Source of the DNA: a virus
Virus record (IMG/VR): IMGVR_UViG_3300046516_000328
Span: 1 to 41,366 of that record
Length of the DNA: 41,366 nt
Reading direction: 5' to 3' (one strand)
Position numbers and translations under genes: made by a program. Under the pieces are notes generated by a model. The model was not told the DNA's origin and did not search any database. It worked only from the letters and a program-made list of their open reading frames with translations. Positions 5,089-36,553 of the stretch are shown one piece after another. The stretch's first letter is position 1, and each line of letters opens with the position of its first letter.

Positions 5089-5483
5089 GCTGCATACTCC
5101 GCGTAATCGGCCGGCGCACTCCAACGAACGCCATGCTGCGCACCGAAGGCCATCATTAGTTCAATAAGATCCGAAAACAGCTTCTTTCCCATCGTGCTCG
5201 TGCGCTGTCCGCAGACAACGAATCCGCCGTCGATGCCGGGAACAACCTTCTGCTGTTTGAGCGATGCGCTGAATACGTCCTTCCAGTTGTCGGGAGTCAG
5301 CTTCTGGCCGTACCAGTTCACCTGGCGCGATATGTCTGTCAGCATCGGCCACAGCTTTGCGTTCTGCTCGAGCGAGCGCGTCGGCTCCGATAGGGTGAGA
5401 ACGTGACCGTCAGGGCGATGCATGACGGCGCCAACGGCGAAGCGTCGATTGCTCTCGTTTAGGATGATGATGTGCTTGTCCAT
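5085..5483 (-). CDS. ninB: NinB recombination mediator
   Basis: The 132-aa product has the NinB/Orf core motif RSLEQNAKLWPMLTDISRQV, followed by WKDVFSASLK and a conserved STMGKKLFSDLIELM segment. Lambda Orf (NinB) binds single-stranded DNA and SSB and replaces RecF, RecO and RecR in phage recombination. The start is taken at the ATG that shares a base with the rusA stop (TGATG). Lying directly after rusA, it belongs to the recombination module together with Erf and the Ref-type nuclease. Confidence 0.92.
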   Translation of the reverse strand: MDKHIIILNESNRRFAVGAVMHRPDGHVLTLSEPTRSLEQNAKLWPMLTDISRQVNWYGQKLTPDNWKDVFSASLKQQKVVPGIDGGFVVCGQRTSTMGKKLFSDLIELMMAFGAQHGVRWSAPADYAEYAA

Positions 5484-5860
5484 CAAGCCTCCGCCACCAT
5501 AACGATGCACTGGCCGCCTTTGACGATCGGACCGCGTGAGACGTGCAGCTCGTCTATCTGGCTGTCGTCATCGAATACGCCTGCATGCATCAGCGCATCC
5601 AGCCCGGCCTTGCAGAAGTTGTCGAGATCCCTGCGGCGCTTGTCGCCACCGCATACGCGCATCGCGACGAACAGACGGGAATCGCCAAACTTCTTCGCAT
5701 TGTGTTCCGCGACGATCTCTGCGACGCGCTCGCGGAAGGTCTTGCCGGCCGCGGTGATGTACATGCCGTGTGGCGACTTCCGCCAATAATTGTTCACGCT
5801 TGGGGGAAGTGGGAGAACTAGAAGCTGTGAATCCCCGTATAACTTCGATTGATCGGTCAT
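5483..5860 (-). CDS. rusA: RusA-type Holliday junction resolvase
   Basis: The 125-aa product matches RusA in length and in its acidic active site: RRDLDN (residues 76-81) and DDDSQID (97-103), with LPLPPSVNNYWR at the start. RusA homodimers cut Holliday junctions made during phage recombination and replication. Its ATG overlaps the stop of the +1 reading frame lying over dcm (ATGA at 5857-5860), while the dcm stop itself is 10 bases upstream; this matters for the overprinting question. Confidence 0.93.
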   Translation of the reverse strand: MTDQSKLYGDSQLLVLPLPPSVNNYWRKSPHGMYITAAGKTFRERVAEIVAEHNAKKFGDSRLFVAMRVCGGDKRRRDLDNFCKAGLDALMHAGVFDDDSQIDELHVSRGPIVKGGQCIVMVAEA

Positions 5861-6654
5861 GCTGCGTTCTTAACCTCGTGATAGCAAATCGAATGCTGCT
5901 GCTGCCACTCTTGAAACTTGCCCGTTTCCAAGGGCTTTAATGCGGTCCACCCGATTGGCCATCCCATCAACCACTCGACCCATTCCGGGTTCAATTGGCC
6001 ACCTGCTGAAGTCGATAGGGCGGTTCCGCCCTGCGCGTACTTCTCTTTTCTGTGGCCTGTGTCGTCCGCAACTGGCGTCGGCCATAACTTCACTTCCGCA
6101 CTTAGCTTCGGCTCGCCGCGGCTGTTCCATTTGCCGGCCGCTCTCGAAACAGCGTCGTCCGCTACGGGCATTTGCCAGAATCCAGATGCGCTCTCGCAAA
6201 TGTGGAGCGCCGGCGTCGGCTGCAGATACGATTCCCCATTCCGCATCGAACCCCATCGAGGCCAAGTCTCCGAGTACTCTTCCAAGCCCCCTAGAAGTGA
6301 GCATTGGGGAGTTCTCCATGTACGCGAATCGTGGTCGAACCTCGCCAATAATCCGTGCCATTTCTGACCAGAGGCCGCTTCGCTCTCCGTCAAGTCCATC
6401 GCCTTTGCCGGCCGCGCTAATGTCTTGGCAAGGGAAACCTCCCGAAACCACGTCAACAATTCCTCGCCACGGTCGGCCATCAAAGGTTCTGACGTCATCC
6501 CAAATCGGGAAAGGCGGGAATGTTCCGTCGTTTTGTCGGGCCAGTAGAACGCTTCGGGCGTAGGCGTTGTATTCGACGGCGCAGACAGTGCGCCATCCAA
6601 GTAAGTGGCCTCCGAGAATTCCGCCACCAGCGCCCGCGAACAATGCCAGCTCAT
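5857..6654 (-). CDS. Overlapping +1-frame ORF lying over dcm (possible overprinted gene)
   Basis: A 265-codon frame begins 4 bases after the dcm start (ATGAATGAGC) and covers the whole of dcm in the +1 frame. It ends in an ATGA overlap with rusA, as most genes in this operon do. One Shine-Dalgarno (GAGGAATAA) serves both starts, at about 4 and 8 bases spacing. The product is Trp/Ser/Pro-rich, with SETWPRWGSMRNG (about residues 129-141) and NPEWVEWLMGWPIGWTAL (about 222-239). I recall similar translations annotated as hypothetical proteins in other phages. Conservation could be a by-product of dcm, so expression is not proven. The unusual codon choice in dcm is a hint of constraint from both frames. 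Confidence 0.5.
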   Translation of the reverse strand: MSWHCSRALVAEFSEATYLDGALSAPSNTTPTPEAFYWPDKTTEHSRLSRFGMTSEPLMADRGEELLTWFREVSLAKTLARPAKAMDLTESEAASGQKWHGLLARFDHDSRTWRTPQCSLLGGLEEYSETWPRWGSMRNGESYLQPTPALHICESASGFWQMPVADDAVSRAAGKWNSRGEPKLSAEVKLWPTPVADDTGHRKEKYAQGGTALSTSAGGQLNPEWVEWLMGWPIGWTALKPLETGKFQEWQQQHSICYHEVKNAA

Positions 6655-6658
6655 TCAT
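5870..6658 (-). CDS. DNA (cytosine-5-)-methyltransferase
   Basis: The 262-aa product has the C5-methyltransferase motifs in order: FAGAGG (motif I, residues 7-12), GFPCQDIS with catalytic Cys77 (motif IV), ENSP at 115-118 (motif VI), HLRERIWI near 155 (motif VIII) and GNGQV at 244-248 (motif X). The stretch between VIII and X is short, so the target recognition domain is small. It would methylate cytosine in phage DNA, probably against host restriction. Hand counting gives about 16 GGA to 10 GGC for Gly and 13 CGA to 6 CGC for Arg, unlike the GGC/CGC-rich neighbours. An entire second reading frame lies over it. Confidence 0.93.
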   Translation of the reverse strand: MNELALFAGAGGGILGGHLLGWRTVCAVEYNAYARSVLLARQNDGTFPPFPIWDDVRTFDGRPWRGIVDVVSGGFPCQDISAAGKGDGLDGERSGLWSEMARIIGEVRPRFAYMENSPMLTSRGLGRVLGDLASMGFDAEWGIVSAADAGAPHLRERIWILANARSGRRCFESGRQMEQPRRAEAKCGSEVMADASCGRHRPQKREVRAGRNRPIDFSRWPIEPGMGRVVDGMANRVDRIKALGNGQVSRVAAAAFDLLSRG

Positions 6659-6674
6659 TTATTCCTCGTTGTTC

Positions 6675-33996: not shown

Positions 33997-34114
33997 GTCA
34001 GCCGCAACAACGTATCTCAGCCCCCTTCGGCGCCTTGAGCGTTAGTCCTAGCTGGATGCGAAAAATCTTTGGCTCACGCCATTCTTTTCGTTGTTTTATT
34101 TAGGATTACACATC

Positions 34115-35431
34115 ATGGCTCAACCGCCCGTCTCGCCGTCCCTGTCGACCCCCAATTCGTTCTCGAAAGAAGAGCGCATTGCGTTCGAAAACGTCCTTGA
34201 AGGCTTCAATGACCAACTGGTCATGTCGAAAGCCGTCACCGTGTTTCACAACGATCAGACCGCAATGGCTCGCCAAGGCGACGTCATCCGCCGTCCGATG
34301 CCCTACATCGCGCGCTCGTTCACTGGCCTTGACCAGTCGGCAAACTTCGCCGGCAAAACGCAGTTGACCGTTCCGGCCGCAATCGACACGATCCGTTCGT
34401 CGCCGTGGCTGATGGACGCAACCGAACTGCGCGACGCACTGCAAGAAGGACGTCTCGGCGCCGCTGCAAAGCAAAAGATCGCGTCGGACATTAACGTCGA
34501 CGTCGTGAACGCTGTGTCGCAGCTCGGCTCCCTCGTCGTGAAGCGCACCGTTGCCGCAACCGGCTTCGACGATCTCGCGCAAGCTGATTCGCTGATGAAC
34601 GAAAGCGGCATCGACTACGAAGGGCGCTACTCGGTGTTTGGCTCGCGCGACTACAACGCAATGGCCGGCAACCTCGCCAGCCGCGCGTATATGGTCGAAG
34701 GCCAGAAGGCAGCAAACGCTTACGAAATGGCAACTGTCGGTCGCCAAGTCGCAGGCTTCGAACGTGTTCTGAAGGCTGATTACCTCGCGCGTCTGGCTGC
34801 TGCTGCTGGCGTCAGCGTGACGGTGAACGGCGCGAACCAGTACACGGTTCCGAAGGCACTCAACGCAACGCCGGCCGGCCCGCTCCAGTCGAACGTTGAC
34901 AACCGCATTCAGGCGCTGGCGATCACCGTCACGTCGGGTAACGTCAAGGTCGGCGACGCCTTCACGATCGCTGGCGTGAACAACGTCCACCCGATCACGA
35001 AGATTGACACCGGACAACCGAAGACATTCCGCGTCGTCGGCATCGTTTCGGGCGCAGGCGGCACGGGCACGATCAGCATCGCTCCGGCAATCATCAGCGG
35101 TCAAGGCGGTACGGACGCGGAACTGTCGTACAAGAACGTGACGGCAACCCCGGCATCGGGCGCGGCGATCACCTGGCTTAACACCGTTTCGACGGGCGTC
35201 AACTGCTTCTGGAAGAAGGAAGCGGTCGAAATCCTGCCGGGTCGCCTCGCAGTTCCGAGCGATCAAGGCATGGCGGTGATGCGCGGCACGACGGACCAGG
35301 GCATCGAAATCGTGATGGCGAAGCAAGCCAACATCAAGAACTATCAGTCGCTGTACCGGATTGACGCGTTCTATGGTGTGAGCGTCACGAATCCTGAAAT
35401 GGCCGGCATCATGTTGTTCAACCAGACGTAA
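34115..35431 (+). CDS. Major capsid (coat) protein, P22 gp5-like
   Basis: The 438-aa product fits the P22 coat family: NSFSKEERIAFENVLEGFND, AMARQGDVIRRPMPYIARSF, LTVPAAIDTIRSSPWLMDAT, and an inserted beta domain in the last third (VSVTVNGANQYTVPKALNA to ASGAAITWLNTV), like the P22 I-domain. The C-terminal YQSLYRIDAFYGVSVTNPEM and a final Asn-Gln-Thr close the fold. AGGATTACACATC precedes the ATG. The N-terminal extension to 34091 lacks a binding site. Confidence 0.94.
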   Translation: MAQPPVSPSLSTPNSFSKEERIAFENVLEGFNDQLVMSKAVTVFHNDQTAMARQGDVIRRPMPYIARSFTGLDQSANFAGKTQLTVPAAIDTIRSSPWLMDATELRDALQEGRLGAAAKQKIASDINVDVVNAVSQLGSLVVKRTVAATGFDDLAQADSLMNESGIDYEGRYSVFGSRDYNAMAGNLASRAYMVEGQKAANAYEMATVGRQVAGFERVLKADYLARLAAAAGVSVTVNGANQYTVPKALNATPAGPLQSNVDNRIQALAITVTSGNVKVGDAFTIAGVNNVHPITKIDTGQPKTFRVVGIVSGAGGTGTISIAPAIISGQGGTDAELSYKNVTATPASGAAITWLNTVSTGVNCFWKKEAVEILPGRLAVPSDQGMAVMRGTTDQGIEIVMAKQANIKNYQSLYRIDAFYGVSVTNPEMAGIMLFNQT

Positions 35432-35445
35432 GCAACGTGTTTCGG

Positions 35446-35461
35446 GCGCCCTTCGGGGCGC
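35446..35461 (+). terminator. UUCG hairpin after the coat gene
   Basis: GCGCCC-TTCG-GGGCGC forms a 6-bp stem capped by the very stable UUCG tetraloop, 14 bases after the coat stop. Only a weak pyrimidine run follows, so it probably protects or attenuates coat mRNA, not full termination. Confidence 0.5.
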
Positions 35462-35485
35462 TTCGCTTACCTTTGGGGGAACTCC

Positions 35486-36553
35486 ATGTCTGCTACAAGC
35501 GAGGCGCGCGCGCTTCCGTTTTTCACTGATCTTTACGGGCAGCCTCTCGAATCCGGCACGATCTATATTGGTCAGCCCGGCCTTGATCCGGTCGCCTATC
35601 CGCAGACGGTTTATTCCGACTCGTCTAGCAATACCGTACTTGCGCAGCCTATCCGCACGACTCACGGTCACGCGGTGTCTGCTGGCGCGCAAGTGCATAT
35701 GTACACGCAAGTCCCGTATTCCATCACCGTTCTGGACGCTGCTGGCCGCACGGTCTATTCGTCGCTGAACGAGATCGATCCGACTCTGACGACGCTTACC
35801 AAGTCGAGCGTGCAAAGCGTTGGCAGTTATGCCGAGCTGCGCGCACGCACTGGCGGATCGAGCAATCAAGTCTACGTCGCGAACGTCGGCTTGTTCATTT
35901 ACGTATCGGTCGACAACACGTCGCCCGAAAGCCTGCCGTTTGTCGTCGTCGGCAATGACGGCTCGCGCTATTACCTCGATCTGCAAGACGGTAATTTCGG
36001 CTGGCTGCGTGCGTCGCGTCCGTCTATCAATCCGGCGCTTGGCGCGGGTGGTGGGTGGCTGAGTTGGAACGATGCGAACGACGGCACAACCTGGCTCACG
36101 AACAACAAGGGCGCAGGCGTCGGCGGCTTCGTCCTTCGTAACGTCAACGCAGACAACACGTCCGAACTCGGGCGCGTCTCCGTCACGGCGACGGGCGGCC
36201 TGGTTACTGGCGACTTCATCAACAGCGGCGGCAAGATCACGACGCTTGGCGGCGACATTCAAGCGGCCGGCAACCTGATTTCGAACGGCGGCAACGTCGT
36301 GCTGACTTCGGATCTGTCGCGCTCGCTGTCGTGGGATGCGGCGAACCAGCGTTACGTTCTCGCGATCTCTCCGCTGCTCATACAGGGCTCGCTTGCGCTT
36401 ACACAGGCATCGCTCATTTCGAACCAGCTTGCTAACGGTGTCGGCTCCTATCAAGTCGGCAACGGAACCGGCCCGACTCCCACGCTCCCCGGAACGTGGC
36501 AGGGAACCGGCACGGCGCAAAACGGCGTTTATCTCTGGCAGAGGGTCGTCTGA
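35486..36553 (+). CDS. Tailspike-like protein with P22 head-binding domain
   Basis: The 355-aa product starts with a P22 tailspike head-binding domain (about residues 10-110): LPFFTDLYGQPLESGTIYIG, then DPVAYPQTVYSD, LAQPIRTTHGHAV and PYSITVLDAAGRTVYSS. This domain fixes a spike to the virion. The rest is beta-rich (SVGSYAELRARTGGSSNQVY, NFGWLRASRPS and a Gly/Asn-rich repeated region) but lacks an enzyme motif and is short for a full spike. It may be an adaptor that carries the beta-helix spike encoded at 36750. Its stop overlaps the next start (TGATG). Confidence 0.85.
   Translation: MSATSEARALPFFTDLYGQPLESGTIYIGQPGLDPVAYPQTVYSDSSSNTVLAQPIRTTHGHAVSAGAQVHMYTQVPYSITVLDAAGRTVYSSLNEIDPTLTTLTKSSVQSVGSYAELRARTGGSSNQVYVANVGLFIYVSVDNTSPESLPFVVVGNDGSRYYLDLQDGNFGWLRASRPSINPALGAGGGWLSWNDANDGTTWLTNNKGAGVGGFVLRNVNADNTSELGRVSVTATGGLVTGDFINSGGKITTLGGDIQAAGNLISNGGNVVLTSDLSRSLSWDAANQRYVLAISPLLIQGSLALTQASLISNQLANGVGSYQVGNGTGPTPTLPGTWQGTGTAQNGVYLWQRVV

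Follow-up and report, generated by a model that had tools for sequence, protein, structure and literature searches.

Overlapping frames of a viral dcm gene and the probable split of a C5 cytosine methyltransferase between them

The dcm locus and its second frame

The locus described here lies in virus record IMGVR_UViG_3300046516_000328, a record of 41,366 bases whose positions 1 to 41,366 form the window, that is, the whole stretch of DNA that was analysed. Within it, dcm (5870-6658, minus strand), referred to as alpha, encodes the putative catalytic subunit of a C5 cytosine methyltransferase, 262 residues long and bearing motifs I-VIII and X. The surrounding genes, coding for RusA, Mu Gam-like, Erf-like, DnaC-like, and ParA-like proteins, are phage replication and recombination genes. 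Nested over alpha in the +1 frame is a second open reading frame (ORF) of 265 amino acids, beta (5857-6654, minus strand), which belongs to phrog_1008, is open in relatives, and displays a coding-type substitution pattern; its predicted product would include peptides such as LNPEWVEWLMGWPIGWTALKPLETGK.

The first-pass annotation had described a 265-codon +1 frame over the whole of dcm, with an ATG 4 nt after that of dcm and an end coupled by ATGA to rusA (5483-5860, minus strand; PF05866, E = 8e-14), and the coordinates agree with this description. dcm itself also ends before rusA as claimed, the distance being 9 nt and not the 10 given earlier. A GAGG at 6664-6667 (minus strand), spaced 5 nt from the alpha ATG and 9 nt from the beta ATG, fits the suggestion of one ribosome binding site for both starts and is a possible shared site. 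The excess of GGA and CGA codons noted for dcm is likewise present, with GGA making up 46% of Gly codons vs. 14% in the neighbours and CGA 41% of Arg codons vs. 6%. Elsewhere in the window, an 804-residue antisense ORF with a TTG start (34106-36520, minus strand) faces two ORFs on the plus strand, 446 and 355 residues long (34091-35431 and 35486-36553).

Methyltransferase motifs in alpha, beta, and their relatives

Alpha matches PF00145 with E = 8e-30 over positions 4-164 of the 324-position profile only, scores 75.4 bits against TIGR00675, under the cut-off of 100.65, and matches phrog_363 at 5e-68. It departs from the canonical single-chain pattern of PF00145 and TIGR00675, in which motifs I-X and the recognition domain reside in one chain. 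Frame 0 holds PCQ, ENS, RxRxR, and GNGQV, and the Pro-Cys-Gln of motif IV with the catalytic cysteine (GGFPCQ, residues 76-78; 6425-6433, minus strand) is invariant in the alignment, while no motif IX-like stretch was found in frame 0 of dcm. After motif VIII, residues 169-246 are unconserved and predicted to be unstructured (pLDDT mostly 31-40); this region includes the linker of residues 169-222 (5993-6154, minus strand) that is overprinted by the beta modules, and is followed by motif X (ALGNGQVSRVA, residues 242-252; 5903-5935, minus strand), where GNGQVP is conserved in frame 0. The remainder of alpha is predicted, from alignments built with rows of the window and contig loci only, to fold as the large domain of M.HaeIII and M.HhaI.

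Beta matches phrog_1008 ("DNA methyltransferase") with E = 4e-28 over residues 60-207 and positions 32-178 of the 329-position profile, and no family for it was found in Pfam, NCBIfam, or PADLOC. The matching phage products of the +1 frame mentioned in the first-pass annotation do exist, as seen from phrog_1008 and from 142 phage records whose translation contains a relative of beta. Residues 221-237 of beta (LNPEWVEWLMGWPIGWT; 5944-5994, minus strand), coinciding with the conservation of codons 226-240, were assigned to motif IX, which in the window reads LNPEWVEWLMGWPIGW; the family pattern LNPxWVEWLMGxPxGW is that of C5-methyltransferase motif IX, and the stretch is collinear with motif IX of the single-chain relatives described below. 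Structure prediction for beta was poor (pLDDT 55, pTM 0.21), and a beta profile search of the PDB found no related solved structure.

Upstream of motif IX, beta proteins carry repeated modules of 25-49 residues starting with WPTP or a variant of it. Their number is mostly 1-3, with a range of 0-5, as counted from 245 distinct beta sequences, 47 without a recognised motif IX being left uncounted. The window has two: residues 160-190 (WQMPVADDAV...EVKL, its WxxP start at residue 160; 6085-6177, minus strand) and residues 191-220 (WPTPVADDTGH...SAGGQ; 5995-6084, minus strand). Module types recur at varying positions in arrays of varying length: the type of the first is also present in loci L023, L048, and L184, and the family of the second recurs at other positions in L099, L146, L159, L014, and L276. 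In L123 and L125 near-identical modules occur though the N-terminal parts share only 30% identity. These patterns suggest that the modules are exchangeable between backbones. In the single-chain relatives they lie after motif VIII and ahead of motif IX, in the region where target recognition domains are located, and they are therefore most likely such domains.

The single-chain relatives were found by a search with the adjacent-gene pair of mycobacteriophage Flux. In prophiT49-1, PFR1, and Starcevich, one ORF comprises motifs I-VIII, one or more LPTP modules, motif IX, and motif X, the N-terminal parts matching the alpha families and the C-terminal parts matching phrog_1008 (E = 3e-64, 8e-43, and 4e-49, respectively); in PFR1, PF00145 covers positions 20-312 of 324, through motifs IX and X. 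As these chains hold modules and motif IX between motifs VIII and X, the +1 family is equivalent to the recognition region of a C5 methyltransferase together with motif IX, motif X being included as well in these chains. In Flux itself, gp80 and gp79 are separate ORFs overlapping by 23 nt, the alpha and beta ORFs of Elephantoon overlap by 182 nt, and the beta ORF of Paenibacillus phage Bloom is nested; Flux gp79 and Bloom_57 match phrog_1008 at 2e-79 and 6e-72. In two further loci, L297 and L298, alpha reaches no further than motif VIII, and it is the beta frame that holds motif X, behind motif IX. That motif X can reside in either partner, in alpha in the window and in beta in L297 and L298, is expected if both make one enzyme. 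Single-chain, split, part-nested, and fully nested forms all exist, as read from these gene layouts.

A long open +1 stretch, containing SETWPxSGxxxxG and a module-like segment before it closes, was also observed in the single-chain genes of PFR1 (L334:658-1704), prophiT49-1 (L335:589-1974), and Starcevich (L336:598-1701). It may be left over from a beta that was once nested there, or be an additional recognition piece. Two metagenomic phage loci (L321:1169-3410 and L327:757-2479) were considered as in-frame fusions and rejected, their modules lying in two frames; they could be split/fused intermediates or assembly indels.

An alpha without motif IX, a beta with modules and motif IX, and the occurrence of split and fused forms are best explained by alpha being the catalytic and beta the target-recognising subunit. 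Very probably, then, a single gene codes in two frames for alpha and beta as subunits of one split C5 cytosine methyltransferase.

Conservation of the +1 frame and alternative readings

To count stops, 80 loci were gathered by the dcm protein alone, ignoring the +1 frame in the choice, and 60 distinct genes from them were used; expected numbers were obtained by synonymous codon shuffles within each gene, leaving the dcm protein unchanged. The window dcm alone has no +1 stop vs. 4.2 expected (p about 0.0005). Across the 60 relatives, 6 stops were seen in the +1 frame and 268 were expected, while the +2 frame of the same genes, serving as a control, had 921 vs. 819 expected, and 215 neighbouring ORFs of the same loci had 1588 +1 stops vs. 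1568 expected. Over codons 6-105, the N-terminal part, a single stop was seen where 90 were expected. Short ends apart, nearly all dcm-chosen relatives keep the +1 frame free of stops throughout the gene, so that a second frame broken beside an intact dcm is the exception. Of 81 genes, 71 retain the beta ATG at offset 4, while alpha starts with TTG or GTG in 33. Stops do occur in the alpha linker of three beta-chosen loci with an intact beta (L184, L244, and L273) and inside beta motif IX of L020 with an intact alpha, possibly reflecting pseudogenes or sequencing errors.

Synonymous change was measured at four-fold sites of unchanged amino acids, with the longest non-overlapping ORFs near dcm as controls. 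In matched locus pairs it amounted to 0.246 in dcm vs. 0.591 in the neighbours and was lower in dcm in 411 of 418 comparisons, in line with the reduction that the first-pass annotation had expected; at 70-80% amino-acid identity the values were 0.27 and 0.49. Since the relatives share ancestry, neither the stop counts nor the synonymous rates come from independent samples, and both describe the pattern. Suppression peaks in the best conserved stretches of the +1 protein: four-fold change falls to 4% over codons 226-240, the motif IX stretch (+1 identity 0.82, frame-0 identity 0.64), and to 14% over codons 181-195 (0.48 vs. 0.24). Judging from the open-frame counts and the lowered synonymous change, the overprinting of dcm by the +1 frame is real; the observation that started this analysis was confirmed and withstood those of its refutation tests that could be run.

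The frame under selection changes along the gene. The freest third position is that of frame 0 over codons 1-165 and motif X, and that of the +1 frame over the modules and motif IX. In the modules, the three beta codon positions differ at 0.24, 0.20, and 0.56, beta identity exceeds alpha-frame identity in all 1611 of 1611 module pairs, and frame-0 identity in the alpha linker is 0.12-0.32. Compared with a simulation lacking any constraint from beta, whose synonymous change (0.65) was a little above that of the controls (0.58-0.60), +1 identity is higher in nearly every window along the gene, e.g., 0.62 vs. 0.37 over codons 1-15 and 0.82 vs. 0.50 over motif IX. By these substitution patterns, beta is under selection at the protein level. 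As a side observation, the conserved C-terminal signature GRVxDGVxxRVDRxKALGN of alpha and its relatives (5903-5994, minus strand, frame 0) largely reads out, in frame 0, DNA fixed by beta motif IX; with four-fold change there held to 4%, Dcm alignments may mistake it for a functional motif of alpha.

The switch of the selected frame, from 0 for motifs I-VIII to +1 for the modules and motif IX and back to 0 for motif X, would also be produced by programmed frameshifting, in which a ribosome translating alpha shifts to the +1 frame after motif VIII to give a fused chain, perhaps returning for motif X; the in-frame fused relatives are consistent with this. However, beta is stop-free and conserved above expectation before any such shift, its own ATG is kept at offset 4, and split relatives have separate start codons with little overlap. 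Independent initiation of beta is favoured, since its N-terminal part is itself stop-free and conserved and since a return to frame 0 for motif X would demand a second shift; frameshifting is regarded as very unlikely.

Slightly less probable still is a beta with a role of its own in the phage, such as regulation or anti-restriction, that overlaps dcm by chance. The beta family is usually unannotated or called hypothetical and has no Pfam or NCBIfam entry, as might be expected of such a protein, but the modules and motif IX of beta line up in order with the C-terminal halves of the single-chain enzymes, dcm lacks exactly the parts that beta has, and motif X changes frame between both proteins in L297 and L298. 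That the +1 frame is a shadow, open merely through the dcm protein sequence and codon bias with no second protein selected, would suit the parts of the beta N-terminal half that follow strongly conserved alpha motifs (frame-0 identity 0.7-0.9) and the lack of synonymous suppression over codons 76-105 (0.55-0.64), but was ruled out by the protein-preserving shuffles with their +2-frame and neighbour-gene controls, by the better +1 conservation and freest +1 third position of the modules and motif IX, and by the occurrence of the family in largely non-overlapping form (Flux gp79) and within single-chain enzymes.

The proposed two-subunit enzyme, known systems, and distribution

Under the preferred reading of a catalytic alpha and a target-recognising beta, ribosomes starting at the first ATG would produce alpha, supplying SAM binding, the catalytic cysteine of PCQ, and motifs I-VIII and X. 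Those starting four bases later, at beta's own ATG, would produce beta, contributing the array of recognition modules (two in the window) and the motif IX missing from alpha. The two would then assemble into a heterodimer methylating cytosine at whichever site or sites the beta modules select. With one target per module, as may be supposed, the split methyltransferase is probably bispecific. Shielding of phage DNA from host restriction would be its most likely purpose.

This would be a whole-gene overlap with both products assigned to one enzyme, an arrangement that, as far as we are aware, few phages with large DNA genomes show. It further seems rather likely that in many phage and prophage genes annotated as "DNA cytosine methyltransferase" the annotated frame is half an enzyme, with shuffled +1 modules setting the specificity over a catalytic frame that is there a passive linker. 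If so, many Dcm-type annotations are mis-described, the part deciding the methylated sequence being absent from databases, and the annotated frame cloned or modelled alone should yield an inactive or unspecific protein. The single-chain, side-by-side, part-nested, and fully nested forms would offer a natural record of how an overprinted pair arises via small frame changes, and, with exchangeable modules lying in the overlap, evolution under double coding can be tested directly.

Among known systems, M.EcoHK31I (YGGCCR) is the closest precedent; according to Lee, Kam and Shaw (1995), its small subunit is reportedly read from another frame inside the large gene. The window shares its division of motifs, as compared by motif layout, with motifs I-VIII and X but not IX in the large subunit and motif IX in the small one, read from the other frame. 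It differs in that beta covers the whole alpha gene from the ATG 4 nt on and carries a module array. In M.EcoHK31I, the larger polypeptide contains motifs I-VIII and X and the smaller one motif IX, with the recognition domain predicted to be part of the larger one (PMC3404938). For M.AquI (CYCGRG), alpha comprises motifs I-VIII, and beta the distal variable region and motifs IX-X (PMC3404938). Its separation of the catalytic part from the recognition part and motif IX is also seen in Flux gp80/gp79, L297, and L298, where, unlike in the window, motifs IX and X are both in the small subunit; the window differs from M.AquI in having motif X in alpha and in its fully overlapping genes, those of M.AquI lying side by side. 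The single-chain prophiT49-1 gp22, PFR1 gp45, and Starcevich gp69 (phrog_116/363 plus phrog_1008) have the same catalytic part, module type, and motif IX in the same order, but in one frame and one polypeptide. The multispecific methyltransferases of the Bacillus phages SPR, phi3T, and rho11, cited in PMC4081073, carry several small target recognition domains in tandem and in frame within one chain. The tandem modules of the window, as candidate recognition domains, would be alike in arrangement but sit in a second protein read from an overlapping frame.

Streptococcus phage MM1 1998 likewise has a +1 ORF nested in its C5 methyltransferase gene, the two (orf13/orf14) being annotated as alpha and beta subunit; as the nested ORF bears this annotation, an overlapping beta subunit is in itself no novelty. 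The nested ORF matches phrog_1008 weakly (5e-4) and falls into phrog_16143. In contrast to the window, alpha of MM1 1998 is a complete single chain with motif IX in frame (PF00145 positions 1-321 of 324), and the nested ORF is short and lacks motif IX. Two Streptococcus phages, MM1 1998 (L337:1186-2343 and 1337-1762) and P0091 (L308:1009-1872 and 1160-1579), combine a complete single-chain methyltransferase, its motif IX in frame, with a nested +1 ORF that carries the label beta subunit or DNA methyltransferase. The new elements are that the overlap spans the whole gene, that the hidden frame holds an array of modules, that the forms make up an evolutionary series, and that the pair is widely spread. 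Among the literature searched, no paper was found to describe the arrangement in general, and neither the passages on GeneTack frame transitions (PMC3711429) nor those on ShiLan, with an out-of-frame HNH insert in a phage methylase (PMC11855218), describe it.

When loci were chosen by beta from viral and genome contigs, some of which are repeated, a full alpha lay in the -1 frame in 205 of 212. The genomes bearing the pair are labelled Pseudomonadota, Verrucomicrobiota, Patescibacteria, and others, and a nested pair also resides on a methanogen plasmid (L310). In the phylum of a Chromobacterium locus, 14 of 398 sampled genomes contained a match at E<=1e-10. The annotation of the pair varies, usually naming just one of the two proteins: alpha is the sole annotated frame in E. 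coli PT62, beta is the sole annotated frame in Pseudomonas phage phPA-G with alpha open too, and in Bloom both are annotated as cytosine methyltransferase.
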